Origin: Massilia sp. CF038
Lineage (GTDB): Bacteria; Pseudomonadota; Gammaproteobacteria; Burkholderiales; Burkholderiaceae_D
Assembly (NCBI RefSeq): GCF_900129765.1
Contig: NZ_FQWU01000001.1
Coordinates: forward strand, 186,001-250,000
DNA length: 64,000 bases
Reading direction: 5' to 3'
The number at the start of each line of letters is the position of its first letter. The stretch's first letter is position 1. Under the pieces are notes generated by a model. It had not been told where the DNA came from and ran no database searches. It was given only the letters and a program-made list of their open reading frames with translations. Shown piece after piece: positions 21,367 to 55,336 of the stretch. The translations under genes and the position numbers were made by a program.

Positions 21367-21396
21367 TTGACAAGAATTCAGCCCCAAGGCCATACT
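21367..21396 (+). promoter_or_regulatory. Promoter of the MFS-GH94-GH3 operon
   Basis: The -35 box TTGACA is perfect at 21367-21372 and the -10 box CATACT is at 21391-21396, with an 18-bp spacer. The expected start of transcription is near 21403, immediately before the LacI-type palindrome at 21408-21421, an arrangement that suits repression. Confidence 0.55.
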
Positions 21397-21407
21397 GCGC
21401 CAGATAA

Positions 21408-21421
21408 TGTTAGCGCTAACA
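21408..21421. promoter_or_regulatory. LacI-family operator, copy A
   Basis: TGTTAGCGCTAACA is a perfect 14-bp palindrome with the central CG typical of LacI-family sites. It lies 18 bp upstream of the MFS start codon, at the predicted transcription start. The 12-bp core GTTAGCGCTAAC recurs exactly at 28537-28548 and 28682-28693, beside the LacI-type gene. Confidence 0.8.
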
Positions 21422-21439
21422 CTTCTTTGAAAGTTACCC

Positions 21440-22792
21440 GTGTCCGCAATCGTTCTGTCCTGGCGTGAAAAGCTCAGCTACGGCATCGCCGACATGGGGT
21501 TCAACTTCTATTGGACCAACGTGTCCACCTTCCTGCTGATTTTCTACACGGACGTGTTCGGTTTGACTGCCGCGGCGGCGGCGTCGATGATGTTCATCAT
21601 CAAGATCATTAACGCCTTCACAGATCCCATGATCGGTGCGCTGGCCGACCGGACCAGCACCCGCTGGGGCAAGTTCCGGCCCTTTCTGATGTGGGGCGCG
21701 CTGCCGCTGGCCGGTGCCGCCGTGCTGACCTACACCACGCCCGACCTGTCCGGGGACGGCAAGCTGGTCTGGGCCTATTGCACCTATCTGCTGATGATGG
21801 TGTGCTACACCTGCATCAATATTCCCTACAACGCCTTGTCGGGTGTGATGTCGAGCGACCCGCAGCAGCGCACTTCGATTAACGGCCTGCGCTTCATCTT
21901 CGCCTTTGGCGGCAGCACGCTGGTGACTGCGGCCACGCCCTGGCTGGTGCGCGCGCTCGGCGGGGCCGACGTGCAGCGCGGCTGGCAGCTGACCATGATT
22001 GTGTGGGGCGTGGCGGCAGCCTGCCTGTTCGCGGTCACCTTCTTCAACACGCGCGAGCGCATCGCCCCACCGCCGGGCCAGAAAAGCGACGTGATGCAGG
22101 ACATTCGCGACCTGACCCGCAACGGCCCGTGGGTGGTGCTGTTCTTCCTCGCGCTGATCATCATGGTCACCATTACCCTGCGCGGAACCACGGCAGCTTA
22201 CTACTTCAAATATGTGGTGGGGCGCCCCGAGCTGATTGCCTCTTTCATCCCGGCGTACATGATCGCGGCCAGTATCGGCGCCGCGCTCACGCCGGTCATG
22301 ACGCGCTTCGTTGACAAGAAGCGCCTGATGATCATTCTCATGAGCCTGACCACGCTGCTGTCGTGCGGCTTCTTCTTCGTTCCCAGTGACCAGGTGGCGC
22401 TGATGTATGTGCTGCAGGTGGCGATGGGCTTTGTGCTCGGGCCAAAATCACCGCTGGCGTTTTCCATGTACGCCGACACTGCCGACTACAATGAATGGCG
22501 CACTGGCCGGCGCGCCACCGGCATGACGTTTGCTGCCGCCACCTTCTCGCAAAAGCTCGGCACGGCAGTGGCCGTGGCGGTGATTGGTTCGATTTTCACG
22601 GCGCTGGGTTACGTGCCGAACGCCACGCAAAGCGCCGGTTCGCAGGAAGGCATTGTGTGGCTGATGTCCTTCATTCCAGCCTTGTTTGCCTTGCTGGCGG
22701 TACTGTGCATGTTCTTCTACCAGCTCGATGGTAAAAAACTCGCGATGGTCCAGGCCGAGCTTCTGGAGCGCAAAGCAGCACAATCAATATAA
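21440..22792 (+). CDS. MFS sugar transporter of the GPH (glycoside/cation symporter) family
   Basis: The 450-aa inner-membrane protein has about 12 transmembrane segments and a GTG start. It shows GPH-family blocks: [17 protein letters not shown] at the N-terminus, [21 protein letters not shown], and [29 protein letters not shown] members import oligosaccharides or glycosides with Na+ or H+. The gene is first in an operon with a GH94 phosphorylase (20 bp downstream) and a GH3 beta-glucosidase, behind a LacI-type operator. From context I infer that it carries cellobionic acid or a similar beta-glucoside into the cytosol, where the phosphorylase acts. Confidence 0.9.
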
Positions 22793-22811
22793 AAATTACG
22801 GAGACAGTTTC

Positions 22812-25166
22812 ATGTTACGCCCAACTGATGGCGGCGAGCGCTTCGAGCTTGCCAGTCCGACCGCCATGCCCAATGCCGCAGGCTTTCTGTGGAATCGCAA
22901 GATGATGATCCAGGCCACCTCCCGTGGTTACGCGGTGGCCCAGTTCATGCAGCCGGAGCCGGCCAAATACGCGCATGCGCCCAATTTGCAGGCCAAGTCC
23001 TTCATGCAGCCGGAGCAGGCCTACTACGCGCACCATCCGGGCCGCTTTGTCTACATTCGCGATGACGAGAGCGGCCAGCTGTTCTCGGCACCGCACGAAC
23101 CGGTGCGCCAGCAGCCGGACAGCTTTACTTTCTCGGTCGGGAAATCGGACCTGCTGTGGCGTGTCGAGCATCTGGGCTTGCGGGTGGAACTGCGCCTTGG
23201 CCTGCCGACCGACGACGTGGTGGAGCTGTGGACCCTGACCGTGACAAATCTGAGCGGCCGCCCGCGCCACATCAGCGTCACGCCGTATTTCCCGATCGGG
23301 TACATGTCATGGATGAACCAGTCGGGCGAATACCGTCCCGACCTGGGCGGCATTGTCGCAAGCTGCGTTACCCCCTATCAGAAGGTGGAAGACCACTTCA
23401 AGCAGAAGGACTTCAAGGACAAGACTTACTTTTTGTGCGAAGACGCGCCTGATTCGTGGGAAGTCAATCAGGCAGCGTTTGAAGGCGAGGGCGGTCTGCA
23501 CAATCCCGCCGGCTTGCAGCACGACTCGCTGGCAGGCGGCGATGCCCGTTACGAGACCCCGGCAGCCGTAGTGCAGTACAAGCTGCCGCTCGCACCGTCG
23601 CAGGTCGTTCAAAAACGCTTCCTGTTCGGCCCCGCGTTCGACGACGCTGAAATTGCGCGCATGCGCACGCGTTACCTGTCGGCCGAGTCGTTTGCGCGGA
23701 CCGCAACCGAATACGCACAATACATCGCCGGAGGCAGCGGTTGCCTGCGCATTCACACGCCCGACAAGGAACTCGACAACTTCGTCAATCACTGGCTGCC
23801 ACGCCAGGTGTTCTATCACGGCGACGTCAATCGTCTGACCACCGATCCCCAGACCCGCAACTACCTGCAGGACAACATGGGCATGAGCTTCGTGAAGCCG
23901 TCGGTGATGCGCGCCGCCTTCCTTCACGCGCTTGGACAGCAGGAGAACACCGGGGCTATGCCGGACGGGATTTTGCTGGTCGACGGTGCGGAGCTCAAGT
24001 ACATCAACCAGGTGCCACATACCGACCACTGCGTCTGGCTGCCGATCGCGCTGGAAGCGTATCTCGACGAAACCGCCGACTGGACGCTGCTTGACGAAGT
24101 GGTGACCGACGTCAGCGGCCGCAGAGAAACGGTGGCGACCCGAATGGGCCGCGCGATGGACTGGCTGCTCAAGGAACGCGATGCGCGCGGCTTGTCCTTC
24201 ATTGCGCAAGGCGACTGGTGCGACCCAATGAATATGGTGGGTTACAAGGGCAGGGGCGTGTCTGGCTGGCTGACTGTGGCTGCGGCCTACGCGCTGAATC
24301 TGTGGGCCGGCATGTGCGAACAGAGCGGAGCGCAGGAACAGGCAACGCACTTCCGCGCTGGCGCGGCCAGCATGAATGCCGCTGCCAACGAACACTTGTG
24401 GGACGGGCGCTGGTATGCGCGCGGCATCACGGACGACAACGTCAAGTTCGGCGTCAAGCAAGATGTGGAAGGCCGCATCTTCCTCAATCCACAGGCATGG
24501 GCGATGCTGTCAGGTGCCGCCAGCGGCGAACAGCGCCGCTGCATGCTGAACGAAGTGGAGCAGCAGCTGCATTCGCCCTACGGTGTGAGCATGTTCGCGC
24601 CGCCGTACAGCAAAATGCGCGACGACGTTGGCCGCGTCACGCAAAAGCATCCTGGTTCAGCGGAGAACGGTGCCGTCTACAACCATGCTGCCATTTTCTA
24701 CATCTATAGTCTGTACACAGTCGGTGAAACCGAACGCGCCTACCAGCTGCTGCGCCAGATGATCCCTGGCCCGGATGAAGCGGATTACCTGCAGCGCGGC
24801 CAGATGCCTGTGTTCATCCCCAACTACTATCGCGGGGCGCATCGCGAATATCCTCGCACGGCAGGGCGATCGAGCCAGCTGTTCAACACCGGTACCGTGT
24901 CATGGGCTTATCGCTGCCTGGTGGAAGGGCTGTGCGGCTTGAAGGGAGACCGCAACGGGTTGCTGGTGCAACCGAACATGCCGGCAGCCTGGAACAGCAT
25001 GCAAGTCGAACGCAGCTTCCGTGGTGCCCATTTCACGCTCAATATCAAGCGCGCCGAAGTGGGCGCAATACAGGTCTGGCGCGACGGGCAGCAGCTCGCA
25101 CAAGCGCGTATCGACACCTTCGCCGCCGGCGATCACATTCAACTCGAGGTCCTTCTGCCACTATGA
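22812..25166 (+). CDS. GH94 phosphorylase, probably cellobionic acid phosphorylase
   Basis: This 784-aa cytoplasmic enzyme has no signal peptide. The ATG at 22812 follows GGAGAC. The N-terminal beta-sandwich occupies about residues 1-270 and the helical (alpha/alpha)6 barrel about 310-710. The general acid lies in GDWCD near residues 467-471 (Asp471). Most cellobiose phosphorylases read GDWND there; the GDWCDPMN form is, as I recall, that of cellobionic acid phosphorylases, which convert cellobionate and phosphate to alpha-glucose-1-phosphate and gluconate. The shared operator with gluconokinase and gluconate permease genes supports this. The stop overlaps the GH3 start (ATGA). Cellobiose or another beta-glucoside remains possible. 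Confidence 0.8.
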
Positions 25167-27343
25167 AAACCAAACCGAAATCGGTCGCCCTGGCTGTATC
25201 GGCCGCGCTGTTCCTGCAAACCGCCCAGGCAGCGACCCCCGATGAGCGCGCGTCGCAAGCCGTTGCCCAAATGACGATGGCGGAAAAAATCCAGACCGTG
25301 TTTGCCTATTTTTCCACTGACTTCAAGGGCGTCGCGCGGCCGAAGGAAGGGGTGCCGCAGGCGGCCGGCTTCATTTACGGCGTCGAGCGTCTGGGCATTC
25401 CGCATCAGCAGCTGACCGACGCTGGCATCGGCGTGGCCAGCCAGCGCGGCGAGAAGGTGCGCGAGCGTACCGCTCTCCCGGCAGGCATTGCCACTGCTGC
25501 CACCTGGAACCCCGCCCTGGCATACGCCGGCGGCGCCATGATCGGCAAGGAGGCCAGGCTGTCGGGCCACAATGTGCTGCTGGCCGGTGGCGTCAACCTT
25601 GTGCGCGAGCCGCGTAACGGCCGCAATTTTGAATACGGCGGCGAGGATCCACTGCTGGCCGGGATCATGGTCGGCGAGCAGATTCGGGGCATTCAGTCGA
25701 ACCATGTGATCTCCACGCTCAAGCACTTCGCCTTCAACGACCAGGAAACGGGCCGCAATCATCATGACACCAAGATTGGCGAAGCTGCGGCGCGCATGTC
25801 AGACCTGCTGGCCTTCCAGATCGCGCTGGAGCGGGGTGATCCCGGCTCGGTGATGTGTTCGTACAACCGCGTGCGCGGCGACTACGCCTGCGAGAGCGAC
25901 TGGCTGCTCAACAAAGTACTCAAGCGGGACTGGGGATTCAAGGGTTACGTGATGTCCGACTGGGGTGCGACCCATTCCACCATCCCCGCCGCACTGCGCG
26001 GTCTGGACCAGCAATCCGGCTGGCCGTTCGACAAGTCCCCCTACTTCAAAGACGCGCTGCAGGAAGCGGTGGAGAACGGTCACGTACCCGAAGCGCGCCT
26101 GAACGATATGGTGCACCGGATCGTGCGCACGATGGCCAAACATGGCTTGATGGAGCATCCGGTACAGATCGAGCCAGAAAAAATCGACTTCGCCGCGCAT
26201 GCCAAAATCTCCCAGGCCGATGCCGAGGAATCGATTGTGCTTCTCAAGAACGACAAGGGCCTGTTACCACTGTCGGGCAGCGACAAGCGCATTGCCATCA
26301 TTGGCGGTCACGCTGACGCCGGCGTGCTCTCGGGAGGCGGCTCGGCGCAGGTCTATCCCGTGGGCGGCCTGGCAGTACCAAACGAAGGGCCAACGGAGTT
26401 TCCGGGTCCGATCGTGTATTTCCCATCTTCGCCAATGAAATCGTTGGCCGCGCGGTCAAACGCTAAATTCGTCTACCACGACGGCAAGGACGCTGCTGCG
26501 GCAGCCAAGCTGGCTGCGGACAGCGATCTGGCAATCGTATTTGCCAATCAGTGGACCGCCGAGAGTGTGGACCAGCCCGACCTGTCCTTGCCCAACGGGC
26601 AGGACGCCGTGATCGCCGCCGTGGCCAAGGCCAATCCGCGCACGGTGGTGGTGCTGCAGACCGGTTCGCCGGTGACGATGCCCTGGCTTGCCAGTGCCGG
26701 CGCGGTGGTGGAGGCATGGTATCCCGGTACACTGGGCGGCGAGGCCATTGCGCGCGTGCTCACTGGTGAGGTCGACGCCAGCGGACGCCTGCCAATGACT
26801 TTCCCCGCCTCAGAATCGCAGCTGCCGCATCCCAAGGTGAATGGCAGCGATGCACCGCGTGACACACGCTTTCTGGTTGACTACGACGTGGAAGGCGCGG
26901 CAGTCGGATACAAATGGTTCGACAAGCGCAAGCAGACGCCCTTGTTCGCTTTCGGTCACGGCTTGTCGTACACCAGCTTTGCCTACACCGGCCTGCAGGC
27001 GGTCGCGAAAGATGGCTCGCTGGTGGTGACCTTCACCACGCAAAATAGCGGCAAGCGGGATGGCAAGGCGGTCCCGCAAGTGTATGTAGCCAAGCCGGGC
27101 GGCGCGTGGGAGGCGCCAAAGCGCCTGGGCGGCTGGGACAAGCTGGCACTCAAGGCGGGCGAGCGCCGCGCCAGCAGCGTGACCATCGACCCGCGCACGC
27201 TGGCGCTGTTTGACGCCAAATCGAACAAATGGAAAATCGCCGCTGGCGAATACGTGGTGACACTGGCCACTGCTGCCGATGCGCCTGTTGGCACGGTCAA
27301 GGTGCGCCTGCCAGCGCGCGAGTTTGCCGCTGGCGGGCGTTGA
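25163..27343 (+). CDS. Periplasmic GH3 beta-glucosidase
   Basis: The 726-aa exo-glycosidase has a signal peptide (residues 1-24, ending QTAQA). The start ATG overlaps the GH94 stop. Family blocks are [61 protein letters not shown] and the nucleophile region [12 protein letters not shown]. The second domain carries NDKGLLPL and later [15 protein letters not shown] fibronectin III-like C-terminal domain closes the protein. It releases glucose from the non-reducing end of beta-glucosides. With a gluconate permease in the same regulon, it may split cellobionate in the periplasm into glucose and gluconate, in parallel with the cytosolic GH94 route. The exact linkage preference is not visible. Confidence 0.88.
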
Positions 27344-27354
27344 AGCGGACGGGC

Positions 27355-28380
27355 CTAGGCGCTTTCGCGCGGCATCAGGGTGTAGCCAAGATCGACCTGC
27401 CCGACGGCAGGTGCGCGGCCCGCAATGGCGTTGCGCAGCAAGGTCGCCGCCTCGTAGCCAATGCGATAGCGCGGCGTGCTGATGGTGGTGACCGATGGCT
27501 TCATCCAGGCTGACGCGGGCAAATCGTTAAAGCCGCACACGGCCAGCTGTTCGGGTACGGCAATGCCGCGCCGCTGGCATTGATAGATGGCGCCATGGGC
27601 CAGGTCGTCGTTGCAGCAGAAAATGGCTTCGCAATCGGGCGCCTGGGCCAGCATGCGGCCCAGCAGTTCCGCACCAAGCGCAATGCTGGAGGCATCAGGC
27701 ACCATCACTTCGAGCCTTTCGTCGGCCAGGCCGGCTTCCTGCATGGCCTGGCGGTAGCCTGCCGCACGGCTCAAGGTACGCTCGTCGAGCTGGGCGCCGA
27801 TGAAGCCGATGCGCTTGTGGCCTTTTTCAATGAGGTAGCGCGTCATGGTGCGCCCAGCTTCGTGCTGCGAGAACCCGACCGACATTTGGGTGGGGTCGGT
27901 GGACAGATCCATCATCGACACTACCGGTACGCCGGACGTGGCCAGCAACTGCTCGACGCGCGGGCTGTGGGTCAGACCGGACAGCAGGATGCCCATGGGA
28001 TTGGACTGCAGGTAAGTGCTGAGCAGCTTCTCTTCTTCGGCATCGGAGTAGCGCGTGTTCCCGATCAGGAGCTGGTAGTTGGCTGCATCGACGACCTCCT
28101 GGATGCCGTCGATGACGGCGTTGAACACGAAGTTTGACAGCGACGGCACCAGCACCACGATCACGTTCGACTGGCTGGAAGCGAGCGCCCGCGCGGCGCG
28201 GTTCGGCACGTAGCCAAGCGCGGCCACTGCCTGTTCGACCCGCACCCGCACCTCGTCAGAGACGCGCTCCGGTTGATTGAGCGCGCGCGAAGCGGTCATG
28301 GTCGAGACGCCGGCACGTTGGGCGACGACGGCCAGGGTAGTGCGGCCGCTGGAGCGGCTCTTGCTGACAGTTCTGGTCAT
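27355..28380 (-). CDS. LacI-family regulator, GntR-like (gluconate type)
   Basis: This 341-aa repressor has an N-terminal helix-turn-helix (about residues 14-41: TTLAVVAQRAGVSTMTASRAL) and hinge helix (NRAARALASSQSN), then a periplasmic-binding-protein-like effector domain. The start is the ATG at 28380; frames further upstream run through the intergenic repeat. It is closest by eye to gluconate-type LacI proteins (GntR of Pseudomonas). It lies between the two transcription units that carry its presumed operators and converges on the GH3 gene. Gluconate or 6-phosphogluconate is the likely inducer, by inference from the target genes. Confidence 0.88.
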   Translation of the reverse strand: MTRTVSKSRSSGRTTLAVVAQRAGVSTMTASRALNQPERVSDEVRVRVEQAVAALGYVPNRAARALASSQSNVIVVLVPSLSNFVFNAVIDGIQEVVDAANYQLLIGNTRYSDAEEEKLLSTYLQSNPMGILLSGLTHSPRVEQLLATSGVPVVSMMDLSTDPTQMSVGFSQHEAGRTMTRYLIEKGHKRIGFIGAQLDERTLSRAAGYRQAMQEAGLADERLEVMVPDASSIALGAELLGRMLAQAPDCEAIFCCNDDLAHGAIYQCQRRGIAVPEQLAVCGFNDLPASAWMKPSVTTISTPRYRIGYEAATLLRNAIAGRAPAVGQVDLGYTLMPRESA

Positions 28381-28535
28381 GAATGTTGGATCGAGGTGAA
28401 GTAGCCGTGATTCTCCCATGGGCGGCGGGGTTGGCGAAGGCGAAATCCGATTTTTTTTGAACGTGGTGGATCGTGATGGTGCGGGGCACCATCGATATTC
28501 GTTTACATCCCCGAAAACCCGAGTAGAATAAAAAA

Positions 28536-28549
28536 TGTTAGCGCTAACC
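28536..28549. promoter_or_regulatory. LacI-family operator, copy B
   Basis: TGTTAGCGCTAACC contains the perfect 12-bp palindrome GTTAGCGCTAAC (28537-28548). It lies 156 bp upstream of the regulator start codon and 145 bp (centre to centre) from copy C. It could mediate autoregulation or looping with copy C. Confidence 0.8.
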
Positions 28550-28568
28550 TTGGGCCGTAACGCCCGCA

Positions 28569-28656
28569 CATCGTCCTCGCGAAGGCGGGGACCCATGGCG
28601 CGCTGGCGTTTCGACTGATTTTCTGCGCCATGGGTCCCCGCCTCCGCGAGGACGAT
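28569..28656. repeat. CGTCCTCGCG repeat, near-perfect long palindrome
   Basis: The left arm begins CATCGTCCTCGCGAAGG and runs to CATGGCGC at 28601. The right arm, 28625-28656, is its complement with one or two mismatches. The loop is about 23 bases. The transcript would fold into a hairpin of about 30 bp, followed by a run of seven T residues at 28663-28669, so on the plus strand it might also terminate. It separates operators B and C. Confidence 0.75.
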
Positions 28657-28680
28657 AGTGGTTTTTTTCACGCGCTGAAA

Positions 28681-28694
28681 TGTTAGCGCTAACC
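28681..28694. promoter_or_regulatory. LacI-family operator, copy C
   Basis: TGTTAGCGCTAACC, with the same 12-bp palindromic core as copies A and B, ends 17 bp before the gluconokinase ATG. The position is right for blocking transcription or the ribosome site region of the gluconate operon. Confidence 0.8.
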
Positions 28695-28711
28695 AGATCT
28701 CGGAAGGCTGG

Positions 28712-29245
28712 ATGGAACAAGCAAGCGACAAGCAGGGGCGTGGTATTCGCTGGGTGGTGATGGGTGTCAGCGGCTGCGGCAAGAGCACAGTCGGGCGCGC
28801 GCTCGCTGCGGCACTTGGCAGTGCCTATGTGGAGGGTGACGAATTTCATCCGCCCGCCAATGTGGCCAAGATGATGGCCGGCCAGCCCCTGGATGATGAG
28901 GACCGCGCCGACTGGCTGCGCACCTTGCAGCAGCAGATCCGCAATGCGTGCGAAAGCGGCACCGGCCTGGTGGTGTCCTGTTCAGCACTGAAACGGCGCT
29001 ACCGCGACTTGCTGCGCGCTGGCGATCCAGCGTTGCGCTTTGCGCATTTGCACGGCCCGCGTGAATTGATTGCAGCGCGCCTGGCAGCGCGGCGCGACCA
29101 CTACATGCCGCCGCTGCTGCTCGACAGCCAGCTGGCCACGCTGGAGCCATTGGGCGCCGACGAAGCCGGTATCGCAATCGATATCCGCCACGCCCCGGAG
29201 CAACTGGTACACGACATTCTGGCCAGCGAAGGCAGCACTGCGTAG
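28712..29245 (+). CDS. gntK: Gluconokinase (GntK family)
   Basis: The 177-aa cytoplasmic kinase phosphorylates D-gluconate to 6-phosphogluconate, which enters the Entner-Doudoroff or pentose phosphate pathway. The Walker A motif is VMGVSGCGKSTVG near residues 12-24. Other GntK blocks are EGDEFHPPANVAKMMAGQPLDDEDRADWL, CSALKRRYRDLLR and HYMPPLLLDSQLATLE. The length is typical. It heads a plus-strand gene string reaching 37697 and starts 18 bp downstream of operator C. The product fits the gluconate released by the GH94 enzyme. Confidence 0.95.
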   Translation: MEQASDKQGRGIRWVVMGVSGCGKSTVGRALAAALGSAYVEGDEFHPPANVAKMMAGQPLDDEDRADWLRTLQQQIRNACESGTGLVVSCSALKRRYRDLLRAGDPALRFAHLHGPRELIAARLAARRDHYMPPLLLDSQLATLEPLGADEAGIAIDIRHAPEQLVHDILASEGSTA

Positions 29246-29371
29246 ACAGCGCGCTTTCGCCAGCAGGTTTTTGGCAATCGCCGGGCGAGACGGAGCCGGC
29301 ACAGGTAGCACAGCACGCGGCCCGTCAGTACAAGCCGCGCGACTATAAATGATAAAAATTGGAGACAACAC

Positions 29372-32299
29372 ATGAACGTACCAAGCCGCAGGACTGTGAT
29401 GCACCTTGCCGTGGCCAGCGCATGCTGGTCGCTGGCTTCGCCGGGCTTTGCCCAGCAAGCCGCCCCCGATGCCGCCGCGCCGGCTGCCACACCGGCCGCC
29501 GCCCAGAGCGCCGAGAAAATCGAAGTGATCACGGTATCGGGCTCGCGCATCGCCTCGCGCGGCTTCTCGCAGCCCACGCCAACCACCACCCTGTCTGCGG
29601 CCGACCTTGAAAAGAACGCCAAGCCGAACGTATTCAATACATTGATCGAACTGCCTGCGCTGCAGGGCAGCACGGGCCGCACCACCGGCGCCTTCAGCAC
29701 CAGCAGCGGCACCCAGGGTTTGTCTTCATTGTCCCTGCGCGGCCTGAGTCCGATCCGCACCCTGACCCTGCTCGACGGGCAGCGCGTGGTGGGTGCCAAC
29801 GTGAGCGGCGTGACCGACGTCAGCCAGTTTCCGCAGCTATTGATCAAGCGCGTCGACGTGGTCACCGGCGGCGCATCCGCATCGTATGGGTCCGACGCCG
29901 TGGGTGGTGTCGTCAACTTCATCACGGATAAAAAATTCAAAGGCTTCAAGGCCAACCTGGAAGGCGGCCAGACCACCTACAGCGATGACAAGCACGGCAC
30001 CGTGCAGACCGCATTCGGCAATGCCTTCATGGGCGACCGCCTGCACCTGGTGGGCAGCGCGGAGTACGGCCGCGAGAAGGGCGTGCCCAATCCTGGCTTT
30101 GGTGGCAACGCTGCCAACGGGCGTGACTGGTACAAGAGCACCGTCTTCACCAACCGTGGCTTTGGCGCGACCACCGACGGCAAACCGCAGCTGCAAGCAA
30201 TCGACAATGCGCAGCAGATTCAGTACGCCAAGTACGGCCTGATTACCGAAGGTCCGCTGCGCGGTACCACCTTTGGCGAAAACGGCGCGCCCAGCCAGTT
30301 CCAGTACGGGACCAACTGCGTTGGCTCATTCTGCCAGGGCGGTGACCTGAGTGGCAACGTGGGCGCCGGCACCAGCCTGGGCATGGACCTGACGCGCAAG
30401 GTGCTGTACGGCCGTGCAGGCTTCCAGCTGGACGACAGGAACGAGATCTACGCAACCGCCAGCTGGAGCGAGGTGGATGCGAATTTCTCGCCTAATCCGG
30501 GCGCGGCCAAGCAAGGCAATCTGACCATGCGCTGCGATAACCCTTACCTGCCGCAGTCAGTGCGCGACCAGTGCACGCAGGCCGGCATCACCACCTTCCG
30601 GTACGGGACCACCAACGCCAACTTCCCGCAATTCATCGACGTCAATCCAAAGCGCACCATGAAGCGGGTGGTCGCCGGCGCTGAAGGGATGTTCAATTTG
30701 GCCGGCAAGGAATGGGGCTACAACGGCTACTTGCAGCACGGCGAAAACGAAATCGAGATCAACGTCGACAACATGACGCTGAACCGGCGCTACGACGCGG
30801 CCATTCAGGCCGTGCGCGCGCAGGATGGCTCGATCCAGTGTGCCAACCCGGCCGCCGTCGCCAGCGGCTGCAAGCCGATCAACGTGTTTGGCAACGTGCC
30901 GATCGACCCTGCCGCCTGGGCCTACATTGCGCCGTCCAACGGTCCACGCCAGTATTCAAAACAGAAGCAGGACGTGGCCAGCTTCAACCTGACCGGTGAA
31001 CCGTTCGAATCCTGGGCCGGGCCGGTTGCCATCGCCGCAGGTGCCGAGTGGCGCCGCGAACAGTACTTCGTTACCGGTGACCCGTACGGCAACGGCGTTT
31101 TCGCGGACAGCCCCAACACGCCCGAGTACCCGGCCGATCCGATCCTGAGCCAGCCCGAGGGCAATCACTGGTACGCGGGGAATTACCATAACGGCCGCGG
31201 TGCCTACAATGTGCGTGAAGCCTATCTGGAAGCAAATATCCCGGTTCTCAAGTCGGCGACGTTTGGCGAAATGAACCTCAATCTGGCTGGGCGCAAAACC
31301 CACTACAGTACCTCCGGCGGCGTCGATAGCTGGAAAGTGGGCGCGACCTGGAATACCGGCTTCGATGGCTGGCGCGTGCGCGCTGTGACGTCGCAGGATG
31401 TGCGGGCGCCGAATTTGTCGGAGCTGTATGCGGCGCCAGTGGTCATCAACGCAGCTGTCAATTTTGGCGGCCAGTCGGTGCAGATTCAGCAACGCACAGT
31501 GGGTAACACCAACCTGCGGCCTGAAATCGCGCGCAACACGGTAATTGGTCTGGTGCTGAACCAGCCGTCGTGGGCGCCCGGTTTTTCTGCATCGCTCGAT
31601 TATTTTGATGTCAAGGTCGAGGATGTGATTTCCAGCCTGCCGAACCAGACCCTGGTGGATCTGTGCGTGGCCGGCAACCAGGAAATCTGCGCGACCCAGC
31701 AGCTCACTGGTCCCGCGGGCAGCAATTTTGTCACGGCCCAGGCGTTTAACCTGGCTTCGCTGCGCAGCAAAGGCTACGACCTGGAACTGGCGTACCGCAC
31801 CCAGCCCAACCCGCTGGGCATTCCCGGGCGCCTGACGTTCCGGGCGCTGGCCACGCACATGGAAAGCTTCCAGACCAAATCGGGCATCCCGAACACGATT
31901 CCAACCGAAGGCGCAGGCGTCAATCTGGGTAACACCCCTGACTGGAAAGTACTGGCCTCGCAATCGTGGGACTGGGACAAGCTGAGTGTGAACCTGGCAG
32001 AACGCTGGATCAGCGATGGCGTGTACAGCAATGAGTTCATCGAATGCCAGACCAACTGCCCGGTATCGACGGCGAACAACCGCACCATCTTCAACAATCA
32101 GATGAAGGGTGCGTTCTATGTCGACTTTGGCGTGTCGTACAAGATGTCGAAGGCGGTGACCTTGTACGCCAAGATCGACAACGTGGCCAATCGCGACCCG
32201 GTGGCGGCGCCACAGGAAAACCCGAGCTATGCGCTCAACCCGGCGCTGTATGACGTGTTGGGACGCACCTACCGGGCCGGCCTGCGCTACCAGTTCTAA
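29372..32299 (+). CDS. TonB-dependent outer-membrane receptor
   Basis: This 975-aa receptor has a signal peptide (about residues 1-28, ending PGFAQ), an Ala/Pro-rich linker, the TonB-box-like EVITVSGSR, a plug domain (SLRGLSPIRTLTLLDGQR and GGASASYGSDAVGGVVNFIT), and a long beta-barrel ending in Phe (GLRYQF). The type is common for carbohydrate receptors of Gram-negative bacteria that degrade plant polymers. A start ATG at 29372 follows GGAGAC. It stands between gluconokinase and the gluconate permease, so I infer an aldonic acid or oxidised oligosaccharide as ligand. Only the family is visible in the sequence. Confidence 0.9.
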   Translation: MNVPSRRTVMHLAVASACWSLASPGFAQQAAPDAAAPAATPAAAQSAEKIEVITVSGSRIASRGFSQPTPTTTLSAADLEKNAKPNVFNTLIELPALQGSTGRTTGAFSTSSGTQGLSSLSLRGLSPIRTLTLLDGQRVVGANVSGVTDVSQFPQLLIKRVDVVTGGASASYGSDAVGGVVNFITDKKFKGFKANLEGGQTTYSDDKHGTVQTAFGNAFMGDRLHLVGSAEYGREKGVPNPGFGGNAANGRDWYKSTVFTNRGFGATTDGKPQLQAIDNAQQIQYAKYGLITEGPLRGTTFGENGAPSQFQYGTNCVGSFCQGGDLSGNVGAGTSLGMDLTRKVLYGRAGFQLDDRNEIYATASWSEVDANFSPNPGAAKQGNLTMRCDNPYLPQSVRDQCTQAGITTFRYGTTNANFPQFIDVNPKRTMKRVVAGAEGMFNLAGKEWGYNGYLQHGENEIEINVDNMTLNRRYDAAIQAVRAQDGSIQCANPAAVASGCKPINVFGNVPIDPAAWAYIAPSNGPRQYSKQKQDVASFNLTGEPFESWAGPVAIAAGAEWRREQYFVTGDPYGNGVFADSPNTPEYPADPILSQPEGNHWYAGNYHNGRGAYNVREAYLEANIPVLKSATFGEMNLNLAGRKTHYSTSGGVDSWKVGATWNTGFDGWRVRAVTSQDVRAPNLSELYAAPVVINAAVNFGGQSVQIQQRTVGNTNLRPEIARNTVIGLVLNQPSWAPGFSASLDYFDVKVEDVISSLPNQTLVDLCVAGNQEICATQQLTGPAGSNFVTAQAFNLASLRSKGYDLELAYRTQPNPLGIPGRLTFRALATHMESFQTKSGIPNTIPTEGAGVNLGNTPDWKVLASQSWDWDKLSVNLAERWISDGVYSNEFIECQTNCPVSTANNRTIFNNQMKGAFYVDFGVSYKMSKAVTLYAKIDNVANRDPVAAPQENPSYALNPALYDVLGRTYRAGLRYQF

Positions 32300-32304
32300 A
32301 CCAC

Positions 32305-32410
32305 TGTCGTCCTCGCGCAGGCGGGGAGCCATCGCACACATGCGCCGTGATGGCGCGTGCGCTCGCTGACACGACATGTCAGTGCGATGTCCACGCCTGC
32401 GCAAGCGGAA
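32305..32410. repeat. CGTCCTCGCG repeat, degenerate copy
   Basis: The left end starts TGTCGTCCTCGCGCAGG and continues CGGGGAGCCATCGC. The right end, about 32383-32410, is a diverged complement (GCGATGTCCACGCCTGCGCAAG). It occupies the gap between the TonB receptor and the gluconate permease gene. Divergence of the arms suggests an old copy. Confidence 0.6.
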
Positions 32411-32426
32411 GGCGCTTGAGGTGAAA

Positions 32427-33791
32427 ATGACGCTCGTATCCCCTTCGGCGGCGTATTTCGGCGTGGCGCCAGTGACCTGGTCCATGCTCGCCGTCTTTTT
32501 TTCCGTATGCCTGCTTACCGTGATCATCGCCTGGGCCAAGGTGCAGCCCCTGATCGCGTTCGTACTGACCGCACTGGTTGCCGCGCTGCTGCTTGGCATG
32601 CCAATCGCGAACATCCCCAAGGCGATTGAGAAAGGTATTGGCGACTTGCTTGGTTCGCTGACCGTGATCATTTGCCTGGGCGCCGTGTTTGGCAAGCTGA
32701 TTGCCGACAGCGGCGCCGCGCAGCGCATCGCCAGCTACCTGATTGCCCTGTTCGGCGAAAAGCGCGTGCCGCTGGCGCTGATGATCACCGGCTTCGTGGC
32801 CGGCATTCCGCTGTACTACAACGTCGGCTTCGTGCTGCTGGTACCGCTGGTATTCTCGCTGGTGTATCAGAGCGGCCGGCCCGCTGTGGCACTGGCAATT
32901 CCGCTGGTGTGCGGCCTGTCGATTGCACACGGCTTTTTGCCGCCGCATCCTTCACCCACGGCGTTGGCCGGACAGTTCCACGCCGACATCGGGCGCACAC
33001 TCCTGCTGGGGATTGTGGTGGGCATTCCTACCTTGCTGATTGCAGGGCCGCTGTTTGCGATGACGCTCAAGAACATCAAGGGTCAAACCTCGGCTCTGTT
33101 CAAAGCCGATCCCAAACCCGAGGCTGAGCTGCCAGGGACCTTCAACAGCTTTGCCAGCGCGCTGCTGCCGGTCTGGCTGCTGGGCGGCTTCACGGTGCTG
33201 ATCCTGTATCCCAGCGCAAGCGCTCAAGTCAATTCCCTGGTCGGGTTCTTTGCGAATCCCTTGATCATCATGCTGCTCGCATTCGCCAGCGCCGCCGTCA
33301 CCTTGGGGCTGATGCGCGGACGGCGCCTGTCGGTCATCATGACCGGTTCCGGCGAGGCCTTGCGCGATGTGGCGCCGATCCTGCTGGTCATCGCTGGCGC
33401 GGGCGCACTCAAACAGGTGCTGGTGGAGACCGGTGTGAGTGCGCAATTGGGCGCTGCTCTAAGTACGCTGCCGGTCCATCCCCTGGTGCTGGGCTGGCTG
33501 ATCGCGCTGATTCTACGGGTCTGCCTTGGTTCAGCCACGGTCGCGGGCCTGACTGCCGCCGGCATTGTGGCACCGGTTGTCGTCAGTACCGGAACCGATG
33601 CAAGTCTGATGGTGCTCGCCGTCGGCGCGGGCAGTCTGATGTGCAGTCACGTGAACGACTCCGGCTTCTGGATGTTCAAGGAGTACATGGGCCTGTCGAT
33701 CAAGGACACCTTCCGTTCCTGGACACTGATGGAAACGCTGGTCGGATTATTCGGCCTGTTGTTTGTAATGCTTCTTTCGCTGTGCGTATAG
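32427..33791 (+). CDS. Gluconate:H+ symporter (GntT/GntP family)
   Basis: The 454-aa inner-membrane permease imports gluconate. I use the ATG at 32427, preceded by GAGGTG. It has about 12-14 hydrophobic segments. Family blocks are LGAVFGKLIADSGAAQRIA, GFVAGIPLYYNVGFVLLVPLVFS, HGFLPPHPSPTALA, GSATVAGLTAAGIVAPVV and CSHVNDSGFWMFKEYM. Length and motifs match GntP-family permeases well. In this operon it would collect gluconate formed outside or in the periplasm, complementing the phosphorolytic route. The gene is followed 16 bp later by the beta-helix protein gene. Confidence 0.92.
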   Translation: MTLVSPSAAYFGVAPVTWSMLAVFFSVCLLTVIIAWAKVQPLIAFVLTALVAALLLGMPIANIPKAIEKGIGDLLGSLTVIICLGAVFGKLIADSGAAQRIASYLIALFGEKRVPLALMITGFVAGIPLYYNVGFVLLVPLVFSLVYQSGRPAVALAIPLVCGLSIAHGFLPPHPSPTALAGQFHADIGRTLLLGIVVGIPTLLIAGPLFAMTLKNIKGQTSALFKADPKPEAELPGTFNSFASALLPVWLLGGFTVLILYPSASAQVNSLVGFFANPLIIMLLAFASAAVTLGLMRGRRLSVIMTGSGEALRDVAPILLVIAGAGALKQVLVETGVSAQLGAALSTLPVHPLVLGWLIALILRVCLGSATVAGLTAAGIVAPVVVSTGTDASLMVLAVGAGSLMCSHVNDSGFWMFKEYMGLSIKDTFRSWTLMETLVGLFGLLFVMLLSLCV

Positions 33792-33807
33792 CTCTTCAAG
33801 GACAAAC

Positions 33808-36800
33808 ATGACAAAGACATTTCAGCCGCTGCTGCTGGCGCTGGCGCTGCTTGGGCCGATTGGTTCAGCCAGTGCATCCGTTTCCGCAATCCAGAACATG
33901 CCGGACGACCCGCGCGCGATCAAGGTCAGCGCCACTGGCGACGGCCAGAGCGACGATACCGCCGCCATTCAGGCAGCGCTCGACCAGGCCGCAAACAAGG
34001 GCACTGGTGGCGTGGTGTTCCTGCCATCGGGACGCTACCGGATCACCCGTTCGATTCTGATTCCGCTGGCCGTGCGCCTGTATGGTGTTGGATCCACCCG
34101 TCCCGTGTTTGTGCTGGCAAAAGATACCCCCGGCTTCCAGAAGGGCGTGGGCACGATGGTCGTGTTCATGGGCGGCGATCAGTACAACACGGGCAAAGTG
34201 CCGGTGCCGGTGGCCAGCGCAGTGCCGTACAGCGAGAACGTGCGCGATGCGAATTCGTCGACCTTCTATTCGGCCCTGTCGAACGTGGATTTCGAGATCG
34301 GCGAAGGCAATCCGGGCGCGGCTGCGGTACGCCAGCGCACGGCTCAGCATTCCAATCTGTCGCACATTGATTTTCGGCTCGGGTCCGCGTTTGCCGGCAT
34401 CTACAACGTCGGCAATGTGGGCTACGATCTGAAGTTCTTTGGGGGGCGCTATGGCATCGTGTCGGAGAAAACGTCGCCCGCATGGCAGTACACGCTGATG
34501 GACGCCACCTTTGACGGTCAGCGCGACGCGGCCATCCGAGAGCACGAAGCCGGCCTGACACTGGCCAATACAACGATCCGCAATACACCGGTTGGCATCG
34601 AGATCGACCGGGGATATGGCGATTGGCTGTGGGGATCGGATGTGCGGTTCGAGAACGTCTCGAAGGCTGCTCTGATCATCAGCAATGAAGACAACGTGTA
34701 CACCCAGGTCGGCTTTCAGAATGCGTTGGCAGCCAATGTGCCGACCTTCGCGCGCTTTCGCGACAGCGGCAGGCAAGTGCCAGGTGCGGGGCCAAACTAC
34801 AAGGTGAAGGAATTCAACTACGGCTTGATGCTGCCTGGTCTCGCCAGTGTGGGCAAATTTGGCACCAGCATGCAGGCCGCGCCGCTCAAGCAGTTGCCCG
34901 CAGCTTTGCCAAACGTGATGCGCGCTTTGCCGCCAACGGCAGAATGGGCCAATGCCCGCAAGTACGGCGCCAGGGGCGATGGCCAGACGGACGACACGGC
35001 GGCGCTGCAAAAGGCAATCGACAGCCAGCGGGTCGTGTATCTGCCGCTGGGCTTTTACATGATCAGCGATACCTTGCGGATGAAACCAGATACCGTTCTC
35101 GTTGGCCTGCATCCCGGCCTGACCCAGCTGGTTCTGCCAAACGGCGCGCCGGCCTATGCCGGTGTCGGCACGCCCCGGGCGATGCTGGCAAGCGCCAAGG
35201 GCGGGGACGCGATCGTGACCGGCATCGGCCTGGCCAGCGGCGAAGTCAATCCGCGCGCCGTGGCCCTGTTGTGGAAGGCGGGCGCAGCTTCGCTGGTGGA
35301 CGACGTGCGCATTCAGGGCGGCCACGGCACGGTGCTGTATGACGGCAGCCGCAAGGACCCCTACCAGAAAACGGCGGACTTTGATCAAACCAGTCATTGG
35401 GACCGCCAGTACCCGAGCGTATGGGTGACCGACGGCGGTGGCGGGACGTTTGTCGGCATGTGGTCGCCCAGTACCTTCGCCCAGGCTGGGTTCTATGTGA
35501 GCGACACCAGCACGCCGGGCAAAGTTTACGAACTATCGGCCGAGCACCACATTCGGGCCGAGATCGTCCTGGACAAGGTCGAGAACTGGGATTTTTTTGC
35601 ACCACAAACCGAGCAGGAAGTGCGTGACGGGATGGATGCGGTATCGCTCGAGATACGCAATTCGCGCAATATCCTGTTTGCGAACTACCATGGCTACCGC
35701 GTCACCCGATCGATCAAGCCTGCGGTGACGGCCGTCAAGCTGCACAACTCGCATAACATTCGCTTCCGTAATGTGCATGTGAACGGCGAGAGCGGATTCG
35801 CCGGTTGCGACGACAAAGGATGTGGCACGTATCTGCGCGCCAGCAAATTCCCGTTCGAGAACGCGATTGAAGATGTCAGCGCCAGGGCCTTTGTGCGCGA
35901 GCGTGAGTTCGCGGTGCTCGATATCGGCGAAAAGCCGGTGATTGGAAGGCCTAGCGCGCACAAGGTGGAAAAGCTCGCCGACGGCTTCTTCTCGCTTGGC
36001 GGCGCAGTAGCCGACGCCAAAGGCAAGCTGTATTTTGTGGAGCGCAAATTCAACCGCATTTACAGCTGGACCAGACCGCGCGGTCTGGAGGTGGTGCGCG
36101 ATGCACCGCTCGATCCCGTCAACCTGGCCATTGACGCCAGCGGTGCCTTGTTCGTGCAATCGTCGTTCGGACCCGAGACCAGCGTCTACTCCTTCCGCCC
36201 GGATGCGCCGTCGGACCAGTTGACCATGATCGCTCCGACGCCGGTGCAGGCGCGTGCAGGTGCGCGCACCGTGCTGCCCGTGAACTGGTGGGTCAATGGG
36301 GAGTTCCGCGATCAGCTCAACCCGGATACCTACGAATTCAATACGCTGGCCGAGCTGTTCGCGCGCGAGGTCGGGACCGCCAAAACGCATGAATACGTGT
36401 CCCCGGACGGCAGTCTCGTCATGCCGGCCTTCCGCATCTGGCGTCAGGGACCCAAGGACCATCTGGGCTGGCGCTGGACCGATTCGGTGCAGGCCAATGG
36501 TTTTGTGACGGGCAAGGTCGGCGAACGTGTGGTGTTTACCAATGGGTCGGAAAACCGCACCTTCAGTGGTGTGGTGGGGGAGGGCGGCGCGATTACCGGC
36601 CTCAAACTGCTGGCCAGGCGTGGCGGCGAAAGCGCCGTCGTTGGGAGCGACGGCAAGACCTATGTCGCCAACGGCCAGGTCTTCGTGTATGACGCTGACG
36701 GCAAGGAGGCCGGGCGCATTGACGTACCCGAACGCCCGCTGCAGCTGGTGTTTGGTGGCGAGGGTGGGCGCAGGCTGTTTATCCTGACCCACCGCTCTCT

Positions 36801-36819
36801 GTACGCGGTGCAGCCATGA
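33808..36819 (+). CDS. Exported tandem beta-helix protein with C-terminal gluconolactonase-like propeller
   Basis: The 1003-aa protein has a signal peptide (about residues 1-24, ending GSASA). Two pectate-lyase-3 type beta-helix repeats follow. The first begins near residue 35 (KVSATGDGQSDDTAAIQAALDQA) and the second near 384 (KYGARGDGQTDDTAALQKAI), the tandem layout of GH55 exo-beta-1,3-glucanases. From about residue 726 to the end, the sequence changes to SMP-30/gluconolactonase-like blades (GGAVADAKGKLYFVERKFNRIYSW, DPVNLAIDASGALFVQSS, PLQLVFGGEGGRRLFILTHRSLY). I infer polymer cleavage joined to opening of an aldonolactone end. Catalytic residues were not verified. The stop overlaps the esterase start as ATGA. 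Confidence 0.75.
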   Translation: MTKTFQPLLLALALLGPIGSASASVSAIQNMPDDPRAIKVSATGDGQSDDTAAIQAALDQAANKGTGGVVFLPSGRYRITRSILIPLAVRLYGVGSTRPVFVLAKDTPGFQKGVGTMVVFMGGDQYNTGKVPVPVASAVPYSENVRDANSSTFYSALSNVDFEIGEGNPGAAAVRQRTAQHSNLSHIDFRLGSAFAGIYNVGNVGYDLKFFGGRYGIVSEKTSPAWQYTLMDATFDGQRDAAIREHEAGLTLANTTIRNTPVGIEIDRGYGDWLWGSDVRFENVSKAALIISNEDNVYTQVGFQNALAANVPTFARFRDSGRQVPGAGPNYKVKEFNYGLMLPGLASVGKFGTSMQAAPLKQLPAALPNVMRALPPTAEWANARKYGARGDGQTDDTAALQKAIDSQRVVYLPLGFYMISDTLRMKPDTVLVGLHPGLTQLVLPNGAPAYAGVGTPRAMLASAKGGDAIVTGIGLASGEVNPRAVALLWKAGAASLVDDVRIQGGHGTVLYDGSRKDPYQKTADFDQTSHWDRQYPSVWVTDGGGGTFVGMWSPSTFAQAGFYVSDTSTPGKVYELSAEHHIRAEIVLDKVENWDFFAPQTEQEVRDGMDAVSLEIRNSRNILFANYHGYRVTRSIKPAVTAVKLHNSHNIRFRNVHVNGESGFAGCDDKGCGTYLRASKFPFENAIEDVSARAFVREREFAVLDIGEKPVIGRPSAHKVEKLADGFFSLGGAVADAKGKLYFVERKFNRIYSWTRPRGLEVVRDAPLDPVNLAIDASGALFVQSSFGPETSVYSFRPDAPSDQLTMIAPTPVQARAGARTVLPVNWWVNGEFRDQLNPDTYEFNTLAELFAREVGTAKTHEYVSPDGSLVMPAFRIWRQGPKDHLGWRWTDSVQANGFVTGKVGERVVFTNGSENRTFSGVVGEGGAITGLKLLARRGGESAVVGSDGKTYVANGQVFVYDADGKEAGRIDVPERPLQLVFGGEGGRRLFILTHRSLYAVQP

Positions 36820-37697
36820 AGGCGGTGTTGCTGCTTGCCGCGGCGCTGGCACTGCCATGCGCGGCGCAAACGACCGTCAAGCTGTGGCCAGCTGGTGCGC
36901 CAGGTTCCGAGAGCCGTCGCAACGAGCCGGAAACGGTGCGCGACACTTACGTCAGCAATGTGCATGACCCGTCGCTGACGGTGTTCAAGGCCGATCCACG
37001 GCATGCCAATGGCGCCGCCGTGATTGTCGTCCCAGGAGGCGGGCACCGCATACTGGTGATGGTCAACGAGGGCGTGGCTGCTGCAAAGGCACTGAACCGC
37101 TTTGGCGTAACGGCCTTTGTGCTCAAGTACCGGCTGGCGCGCGACGGCGACGCCGGCTACACGATCGAAGGCCATGGCGCTGCCGATCTGCGGCGCGCGG
37201 TCAGGCTGGTACGCGCTAACGCCACGCAATATGGTATCGATCCGAAGCGGCTGGGCGTGATGGGCTTTTCCGCCGGCGGTGAACTGGTTGCCCTGGTGGC
37301 CGACAATCCAGCGCCACCAGCATCGGGCGCAGACCTCGTCGAACGCACCAGTGCGCGTCCCGATTTCCAGGTGCTGGTGTACCCAGGGCCGCTAGGCTCG
37401 CCGGCCAGGGCAATTGAGGGTGCGCCGCCAGCATTCATTGTGGCGGGCGCCGTGGACAAGTGCTGCGCACCGCCGGCCATTGGTCTGTACCAGCAACTGG
37501 TGGGGGCAGGGGTGTCGGCCGAGTTGCACCTGTATGCCGACACCGATCATGCCTTCAATATGGGAGCGCGCTCGGAGCGGGTGTCGGTGCAGCGCTGGCC
37601 AGACCGGCTGCATGACTGGCTGCTCGACGGTGGCTGGATGGTCCAACGCGGTGACGGCCCGCCACAAGGGGTGCCTGCGCCCACGCCGAACTGGTAG
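36816..37697 (+). CDS. Exported alpha/beta-hydrolase, acetyl-xylan-esterase-like
   Basis: The 293-aa protein carries a short signal peptide (residues 1-18, ending PCAAQ). The oxyanion segment VVPGGGH, nucleophile elbow GFSAGG (near residue 153) and the C-terminal TDHAF histidine are visible, so the catalytic triad appears complete. It resembles BD-FAE/XynB-type esterases, which remove acetyl or other acyl groups from plant polysaccharides. Its start overlaps the beta-helix gene stop, so the two are translationally coupled. It is probably the last gene of the gluconate operon. The acyl substrate cannot be read from sequence. Confidence 0.85.
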   Translation: MKAVLLLAAALALPCAAQTTVKLWPAGAPGSESRRNEPETVRDTYVSNVHDPSLTVFKADPRHANGAAVIVVPGGGHRILVMVNEGVAAAKALNRFGVTAFVLKYRLARDGDAGYTIEGHGAADLRRAVRLVRANATQYGIDPKRLGVMGFSAGGELVALVADNPAPPASGADLVERTSARPDFQVLVYPGPLGSPARAIEGAPPAFIVAGAVDKCCAPPAIGLYQQLVGAGVSAELHLYADTDHAFNMGARSERVSVQRWPDRLHDWLLDGGWMVQRGDGPPQGVPAPTPNW

Positions 37698-43280: not shown

Positions 43281-43380
43281 ACATCGTCCTCGCGAAGGCG
43301 GGGACCTATACCATGTCACCGAAGTTGTTCAGCGTGGTATGGGGCTGGCGCATGCGCCAGCACCTTCGCGAGGACGACGT
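43281..43380. repeat. CGTCCTCGCG repeat, full copy
   Basis: Left arm ACATCGTCCTCGCGAAGG plus CGGGGACC; right arm ends CCTTCGCGAGGACGACGT. An inner palindrome CTGGCGCATGCGCCAG lies just before the right arm, as in the copy at 55235. It sits between two convergent genes and may serve as a bidirectional 3' hairpin. Confidence 0.75.
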
Positions 43381-55234: not shown

Positions 55235-55336
55235 ACATCGTCCTCGCGCAGGCGGGGACCCATAGCACGCCTGCAAATAGTTGCGCATGCGTGGCACAGG
55301 GCTGGCGTACGCGCCAGCGCCTCCGCGAGGACGACC
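55235..55336. repeat. CGTCCTCGCG repeat inside the macromolecular synthesis operon
   Basis: Left arm ACATCGTCCTCGCGCAGG plus CGGGGACC; right arm CTCCGCGAGGACGAC. An inner palindrome near CTGGCGTACGCGCCAG parallels the copy at 43281. It begins directly after the yqeY stop codon and ends about 70 bp before dnaG. Confidence 0.75.

Follow-up and report, generated by a model that had tools for sequence, protein, structure and literature searches.

Several described systems consume cellobionate or gluconate. The aldonic acid pathway of Neurospora crassa comprises the beta-glucosidase NCU08755, CBT-1, CAP and a gluconokinase (PMC4537572, available in part), and Escherichia coli can use cellobionic acid as its sole carbon source via AscB (PMC4403981, likewise in part). 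The available part of a review names the Saccharophagus degradans enzyme of PDB entry 4zle cellobionic acid phosphorylase, or CBAP (PMC8950772). For the GntR repressor of Pseudomonas aeruginosa, the accessible text gives the operator as AC-N-AAG-N-TAGCGCT and the effectors as gluconate and 6-phosphogluconate (PMC5902321). A gene block that shares features with each of these systems lies in a 64,000-nucleotide stretch of DNA from Massilia sp. CF038 (contig NZ_FQWU01000001.1, positions 186,001 to 250,000; hereafter the window, whose numbering is used throughout). The block very probably constitutes a two-operon aldonate-utilisation locus repressed by GntR, and its most likely role is to import and catabolise the acid sugars that oxidative cellulose cleavage leaves behind.

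The likeness to N. crassa, as far as the available text of that study goes, is a two-branch logic in which a secreted beta-glucosidase acts outside the cell, and import by the major facilitator superfamily (MFS) and phosphorolysis proceed inside. In the Massilia locus this logic is ascribed to the GH3 enzyme plus permease and to the symporter plus CBAP. The Massilia locus differs in its bacterial genes, adjacent operons, single repressor and gluconate permease, the last of which the Neurospora authors state that they did not identify (PMC4537572, same part). The AscB route of E. coli, in the available part of its description, is likewise a bacterial use of cellobionate, but depends on a phospho-beta-glucosidase rather than a phosphorylase or CBAP. 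With the P. aeruginosa gntR-gnuK-gntP genes, as described in the accessible text of PMC5902321, the locus shares a GntR equivalog, a divergent gluconokinase gene, a gluconate permease and the TAGCGCT operator core, but its regulon appears widened to CBAP, a symporter, a GH3 enzyme, a TonB receptor and secreted proteins. Unlike Sde_0906 of S. degradans and XCC4077 of Xanthomonas campestris, the closest known enzymes, the window enzyme appears to stand within a GntR regulon together with a TonB receptor, a GntP permease and a beta-helix protein.

The phosphorylase, the repressor and the gluconate genes are of known kinds. The novelty, judging from the sequences, lies in a conserved operon of gluconokinase, TonB receptor, permease and GH55-like protein, which is linked to CBAP through the shared operator and through co-occurrence. 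A bacterial phosphorolytic route for cellobionate with its transport and control was not found in the literature searched; GntR regulons are included in one survey of the regulons of LacI-family repressors, and the string 'cellobion' is absent from its main text (PMC4052901). The same literature, which did not extend to subscription papers including the two founding CBAP papers, gave no account of the combined regulon, and a published gene map is possible.

The probable cellobionic acid phosphorylase and its gene block

The placement of the GH94 protein of the block supports its assignment as a CBAP. It is 66% identical over 784 residues (1248 bits) to the crystallised S. degradans enzyme (SdCBAP; Sde_0906, Cep94B, PDB 4zle), and the next-best GH94 specificities are chitobiose phosphorylase at 183 bits and cellobiose phosphorylase at 123 bits. 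Its GDWCD motif, placed at the general-acid site in the original prediction, corresponds to G467-D471. A 2015 abstract by Nam reportedly describes Gln190, Arg609 and Lys613 of SdCBAP as reading the carboxylate. The aligned residues Q190, R608 and K612 are present in every one of the 81 sequences compared, namely the window enzyme and those of 80 CBAP loci (the best 80 of 341 loci from a scan of named genomes). Three other GH94 sequences were aligned with this set: a paralogue at locus L064, a partial one at L065 and the long GH94 protein of the window genome. All three carry Tyr at the R608 and K612 positions, and at the Q190 position they have Thr, a gap and Ser. In further alignments, the R608/K612 equivalents are F/V (chitobiose phosphorylase), E/Y (cellobiose phosphorylase) and Y/Y (cyclic glucan synthase).

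An ordinary cellobiose phosphorylase would share the family and the general-acid motif, and cellobiose would be the commoner sugar; even so this identity is very improbable, and cellobiose and chitobiose phosphorylase were both rejected on the bit scores and the differing residues at R608 and K612. The genome's GH94 matches include no plain cellobiose phosphorylase: the sole match besides the window enzyme is an open frame of 2977 amino acids, taken for a cyclic glucan synthase by its length and similarity. A different substrate for the window enzyme, a beta-glucosyl uronate such as glucosyl-glucuronate in place of cellobionate, is improbable as well. Uronic acids are also reported as acceptors of SdCBAP, and sequence cannot separate the two substrates; the co-regulated kinase, GntP permease and GntR, however, serve gluconate and not glucuronate.

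Open reading frame translations with Pfam and NCBIfam scans show the block, 21408-37697, as two plus-strand gene sets flanking a minus-strand repressor gene. Every gene named in the original prediction (symporter, GH94, GH3, repressor, gluconokinase, TonB receptor, permease and beta-helix protein) was recovered on its proposed strand. The features are as follows.

21367..21396, plus strand: promoter-like TTGACA-18-CATACT, 10 of 12 positions, upstream of the MFS-CBAP-GH3 operon
21408..21421, no strand: presumed GntR operator 1, TGTTAGCGCTAACA, exact, 18 bp 5′ of the MFS start codon
21440..22792, plus strand: GPH-family cation symporter (MFS), proposed cellobionate importer (TIGR00792, 405 bits, cut-off 231)
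22812..25166, plus strand: probable GH94 CBAP, 784 amino acids, 66% identical to SdCBAP 4zle, with Q190, R608 and K612 kept
25163..27343, plus strand: GH3 beta-glucosidase-like enzyme (Pfam), probable signal peptide judged by eye
27355..28380, minus strand: LacI-family GntR repressor, 341 amino acids (NF052440, 518.8 bits, cut-off 400)
28502..28529, plus strand: promoter-like TTTACA-16-TAGAAT facing gluconokinase, 10 of 12 positions
28536..28549, no strand: presumed GntR operator 2, TGTTAGCGCTAACC, one mismatch, from a pattern search
28681..28694, no strand: presumed GntR operator 3, TGTTAGCGCTAACC, one mismatch, 17 bp 5′ of the gluconokinase start
28712..29245, plus strand: gluconokinase of the GntK/IdnK type (TIGR01313, 191.9 bits, cut-off 113.75)
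29372..32299, plus strand: TonB-dependent outer-membrane receptor (PF00593 and PF07715)
32376..33791, plus strand: GntP-family gluconate permease, whose true start may be 32427 (TIGR00791, 447 bits, cut-off 292.75)
33808..36819, plus strand: secreted protein of 1003 residues with two tandem GH55-related beta-helices and a C-terminal SGL-like beta-propeller, signal peptide judged by eye
36816..37697, plus strand: alpha/beta-hydrolase esterase (BD-FAE / PaeX-like; NCBIfam matches below cut-off), probable signal peptide judged by eye

In the left set, 19 bp separate the symporter and GH94 genes, and the GH3 gene overlaps the GH94 stop by 4 bp. The right set is spaced by 126 bp between the gluconokinase and TonB receptor genes and by 76 or 127 bp between receptor and permease, depending on the permease start. 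The flanking genes scanned have no evident link to the locus. Upstream, by Pfam, are an aminoacyl-tRNA editing protein, an endonuclease/phosphatase-family protein, a GGDEF-EAL protein and an HlyD-type protein; downstream lie a protein lacking a Pfam match, a glycerol-3-phosphate acyltransferase and an NMT1-like binding protein with its permease component.

Among the 80 CBAP loci, a gene was scored as present when the match covered at least half of the protein, and absences are not firm in the 13 loci shorter than 20 kb. A symporter relative, listed upstream of GH94, is found in 76 loci, a GntR relative (at least 40% identity) in 65 and a gluconokinase (at least 30%) in 50. A TonB receptor at least 55% identical occurs in 10 of the 80, and a permease in one at 40% identity or more and in two at 30%. 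The beta-helix protein accompanies CBAP in a single locus, L008 of Massilia sp. IC2-477, where the stretch examined has no GH3 gene; L126, from the same genome, has no esterase gene. The symporter-CBAP pair itself is present in loci of Oxalobacteraceae, Roseateles/Pelomonas, Cellvibrio, Gilvimarinus, Vibrio and Xanthomonas. Enzymes at the Xanthomonas loci L083 and L086 are 65% and 64% identical to the window enzyme (XCC4077 of Xanthomonas campestris itself was not compared), and no GntR relative was found at these two loci or elsewhere in the DNA stretches examined around Vibrio and Xanthomonas CBAP genes. Three of the four proteins scanned at L083 lack a Pfam match at E 1e-8, probably owing to crude longest-frame calls.

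As far as these neighbourhoods indicate, the symporter-CBAP pair is widespread, and its occurrence with GntR and gluconokinase nearby is common, so the core of the locus belongs to a known kind. The original prediction knew of no description of the assembly with a TonB receptor and a beta-helix/lactonase fusion. Within the layout, the symporter-CBAP-GntR-gluconokinase core is common and the two-branch route is published; only the union with a TonB-permease-beta-helix operon is unusual.

The GntR repressor and its presumed operators

The repressor is supported by profile searches as a LacI-family GntR of the Pseudomonas type. It scores 518.8 bits against NF052440, the NCBI equivalog for P. aeruginosa GntR (cut-off 400), and stays below the cut-offs of the E. 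coli models for GntR (261.7 of 433) and IdnR (289 of 500). Both a gluconate-type repressor and a matching regulon are thus supported. The palindrome core upstream of its presumed targets, TAGCGCT, is identical to the published core of the P. aeruginosa operator. With two mismatches allowed, the window contains three palindromes where 0.17 would be expected, and no shuffle reaches three. Across the 5.66 Mb genome, the presumed operator is found at up to one mismatch in four places. Three of these are in the locus, and the fourth lies 27 bp 5′ of the start of a second gluconokinase gene (L090, 9985-10535), whose product is confirmed as to family by profile and shares 59% identity with the first. 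When two mismatches are allowed, there are nine places in the genome and 11 for the reversed control pattern; because the control exceeds the real pattern at that threshold, only the four close sites are counted and the two-mismatch sites of this genome were rejected as evidence.

The original prediction had one operator common to both operons. Palindromes do precede the symporter and gluconokinase genes, two of them between gntR and gntK, but the TonB receptor and permease genes have no site of their own. The same is true of the beta-helix and esterase genes. Co-transcription of these four genes with gluconokinase is inferred because they lack operators and follow gluconokinase on the same strand at the gaps given above. 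Promoter-like sites number eight in the region against 3.5 expected, a weak excess on its own. The two that match best sit immediately 5′ of operators 1 and 2, the element at 21367..21396 being followed directly by operator 1, and such a promoter-operator arrangement is what repression would lead one to expect.

A dispersed 27-base repeat (CGTCCTCGCG-AGGCGGGGACCCATGG) has five copies in the window at up to three mismatches (28572-28598, 28628-28654, 32308-32334, 43285-43311 and 55239-55265) and none in shuffles. Two copies, inverted relative to each other, make up a pair that separates operators 2 and 3, and another lies between the TonB receptor and permease genes. The repeat looks like a repetitive extragenic palindromic (REP-type) element.

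The operator was sought in relatives within 300 bp upstream of genes with at least 100 upstream bases, at up to two mismatches and with a reversed control. Identity floors were set at 60% for MFS, 55% for gluconokinase, 60% for GntR, 55% for TonB and 60% for permease; loci below them were dropped, including 29 of the 50 CBAP loci with a gluconokinase, in which this enzyme fell short of 55% identity. In CBAP loci a site precedes 21 of 21 gluconokinase genes, 25 of 56 MFS genes, 5 of 39 gntR genes, 0 of 10 TonB genes and the one permease gene in no case (0/1). In beta-helix loci the counts are 13 of 13 for gluconokinase, 1 of 1 for gntR, 3 of 15 for TonB and 1 of 18 for permease. One genome (L008 = L126) is common to both sets. 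Upstream of gluconokinase in the tested loci, the reversed control never comes closer than three mismatches. Where the regulator of a CBAP locus is more distant (Pelomonas, Cellvibrio, Gilvimarinus), there is no site within one mismatch.

The second operon and its beta-helix protein

The CBAP and beta-helix proteins occur together in other genomes as well. Searches for the two used differing E limits (1e-200; 1e-30 and 1e-100). In 294 genomes of the family, the beta-helix protein is found in 26 and CBAP in 29, with both in 23, the beta-helix protein alone in three and CBAP alone in six. In 74 genomes of the genus of G040, the corresponding numbers are 35, 46, 34, 1 and 12, and 27 genomes have neither. 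Fisher tests give p values of 9.7e-10 for the genus and 1.2e-25 for the family sample, which are descriptive only, being uncorrected for shared ancestry. The two samples overlap and together hold 44 genomes with both proteins. On this co-occurrence, and on the operator before gluconokinase in both sets of loci, the CBAP and beta-helix operons are read here as one regulon in two pieces, probably inherited together.

Gene neighbourhoods of the beta-helix protein were compared at 20 loci, drawn from 29 foreign places in the family sample. A GntP-family permease is present in all 20 (18 at 60% identity or more, two at about 35%), a TonB receptor in 15, a gluconokinase in 13 and an esterase (at least 55%) in 12. 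Two more loci differ in this respect, the permease being present at L150 and missing at L148. The receptor also appears to be tied to CBAP independently, since in Pelomonas/Roseateles CBAP loci (L046 13432-16509, and similar ones) a TonB receptor 58-64% identical has a GntR-like gene next to it and the beta-helix protein is absent.

By sequence, the beta-helix protein is related to GH55. A profile of 21 relatives finds as nearest solved structures the GH55 beta-1,3-glucanases 5m5z (E 2.9e-21) and 3eqn (E 1.3e-15), in a match that covers helix one and the beginning of helix two and ends near residue 490, the helices together making up 706 residues. In the available part of a GH55 study, these enzymes have two beta-helical domains, a general-acid Glu with a Tyr at +3, a Glu-His pair, a relay Gln and an aromatic block (PMC10637969). 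In order and spacing, E602, E579-H580, Q180, W539 and D542 of the window protein fit GH55 catalytic or subsite residues, and they are invariant in 21 of 21 relatives. Like 5m5z, 3eqn and SacteLam55A it has tandem beta-helices by sequence, together with these fitting residues; it differs in having V605 for the +3 Tyr, S537 for the first Trp of the aromatic block, a propeller fusion and a gluconate permease in the same gene set. The motif arises in 162 of 200000 domain shuffles in a post hoc test. A 39-residue stretch of 3eqn was matched as well in 8 of 5000 shuffles, yet scores below zero bits in the profile search, and neither single-sequence nor profile search found a GH55 match in the presumed catalytic half (residues 470-706). 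A pectinase reading was rejected on the GH55 relatives of the helices. The Pfam helix model matched is the broad Pect-lyase_RHGA_epim, and the better of two NCBIfam matches below cut-off is a rhamnogalacturonidase (43.6 of 500 bits).

The C-terminal domain, called a lactonase in the original prediction, is doubtful in that role. Its SGL match (PF08450) is confined to residues 942-995 (29.7 bits, cut-off 26.3), although 21 of 21 relatives match the same model (best E 8.4e-14). The best PDB matches are designed propellers, and the best entry named gluconolactonase is 3e5z (E 4.3e-06). The metal ligands of SMP-30/gluconolactonase are Glu, Asn and Asp; in the alignment no first-blade Glu was seen, Asn is not conserved and Asp is replaced by an invariant E941.

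A bolder proposal is offered tentatively and with considerable doubt. The beta-helix/propeller protein may be the founding member of a new subfamily related to GH55, which would act outside the cell on glucans that are oxidised or carry gluconate and release gluconate or a short sugar ending in it. With the TonB receptor and GntP permease it would form the outer half of a GntR system of which CBAP is the inner half, the halves being co-inherited and co-regulated even when far apart.

It is likewise possible, though rather unlikely, that the locus is chiefly a gluconate-scavenging, fungus-feeding regulon, with fungal gluconate as cue and food, the GH55-like protein attacking fungal beta-1,3-glucan and CBAP serving as a side branch that handles cellobionate of the same fungal origin. 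The GntR effectors in the accessible text of PMC5902321, the sites before two gluconokinase genes, the GH55 relatives of the helices and the permease beside the beta-helix protein in 20 of 20 loci would all suit such a diet. It accords poorly with the strong co-occurrence with CBAP (34 of 35 beta-helix genomes in one genus) and with a GH55 catalytic set kept only in part; moreover, the GH55 products given in the available part of PMC10637969, glucose and gentio-oligosaccharides, would leave the permease unexplained.

A second type of beta-helix protein, 64-67% identical, is encoded at L141, L142 and L143 with a TonB receptor and permease and no gluconokinase; L141 and L143 also have distant GH3 and esterase genes. 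An exact palindrome lies inside the receptor gene at 5971 in L141 and a two-mismatch site before the receptor gene in L142, and L143 has none closer than four mismatches there. The most distant relatives (about 60%), at L144 and L145, stand near a permease just 35% identical to the window GntT, which could carry a different aldonate. Viral contigs yielded no beta-helix relatives.

Proposed source and fate of the acid sugars

In the proposed mechanism, the symporter would carry cellobionate into the cytosol, where CBAP would use phosphate to convert it into glucose 1-phosphate and gluconate. The secreted GH3 enzyme may split cellobionate outside into glucose and gluconate, and the GntP-type permease would import gluconate released there; periplasmic GH3 cleavage and TonB uptake of cellobionate are plausible. 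Gluconokinase would yield 6-phosphogluconate for the Entner-Doudoroff path; the proposed gluconokinase is supported by its score over the TIGR01313 cut-off, and edd, which encodes 6-phosphogluconate dehydratase, is present at another place in the genome. Gluconate or 6-phosphogluconate would lift GntR off its operators. The TonB receptor, the GH55-like/propeller protein and the esterase may act upstream, freeing or collecting an aldonate-bearing sugar.

Several observations weigh against the two-operon, GntR-repressed locus as set out here. In relatives the operator is far from universal (25 of 56 MFS and 5 of 39 gntR genes), and L009, L017 and L068 encode a close GntR relative yet have no site within one mismatch. 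GH3 is present in only 15 of the 80 CBAP loci. Nam's work of 2015, which reportedly assigned the reading of the carboxylate to the Gln, Arg and Lys residues, reportedly also gives glucuronate as an acceptor of SdCBAP. The CBAP and beta-helix operons are adjacent in just three of the 44 genomes with both (the window genome, G149, which is the genome of L008, and G318), so linkage alone says little. The two operons of G318 run towards each other; there the symporter is preceded by an exact site and gluconokinase by one with two mismatches. The remaining 41 genomes have the two on separate contigs or more than 400 kb apart, positions being judged by eye, and draft contigs could conceal some adjacent pairs. 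Finally, the one AA10 lytic polysaccharide monooxygenase (LPMO) match in the genome (G000:C7:124218-124712, L007; no other LPMO family was searched) has GbpA domain 2, and domain 3 just below cut-off (26 of 27 bits). GbpA proteins are chitin-directed, which suggests that this enzyme attacks chitin rather than cellulose.

A home-made supply of oxidised cellulose is accordingly doubtful on this AA10 search. Since the sole AA10 LPMO found is GbpA-like, the oxidised cellulose sugars would come from other, cellulose-oxidising microbes and probably not from the cell itself. Cellulase-family matches in the genome comprise two GH9 and four PF00150 proteins, and no membrane pyrroloquinoline quinone (PQQ) glucose dehydrogenase scored over its cut-off (other glucose oxidases were not searched).

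How fungi consume cellobionate is already established, and this locus offers a testable bacterial phosphorolytic route with a named regulator and operator. The operator is a way to find further parts of the regulon. The secreted beta-helix proteins form a conserved family whose product can be guessed from its permease, and a member that appears to share its control with CBAP is worth testing.

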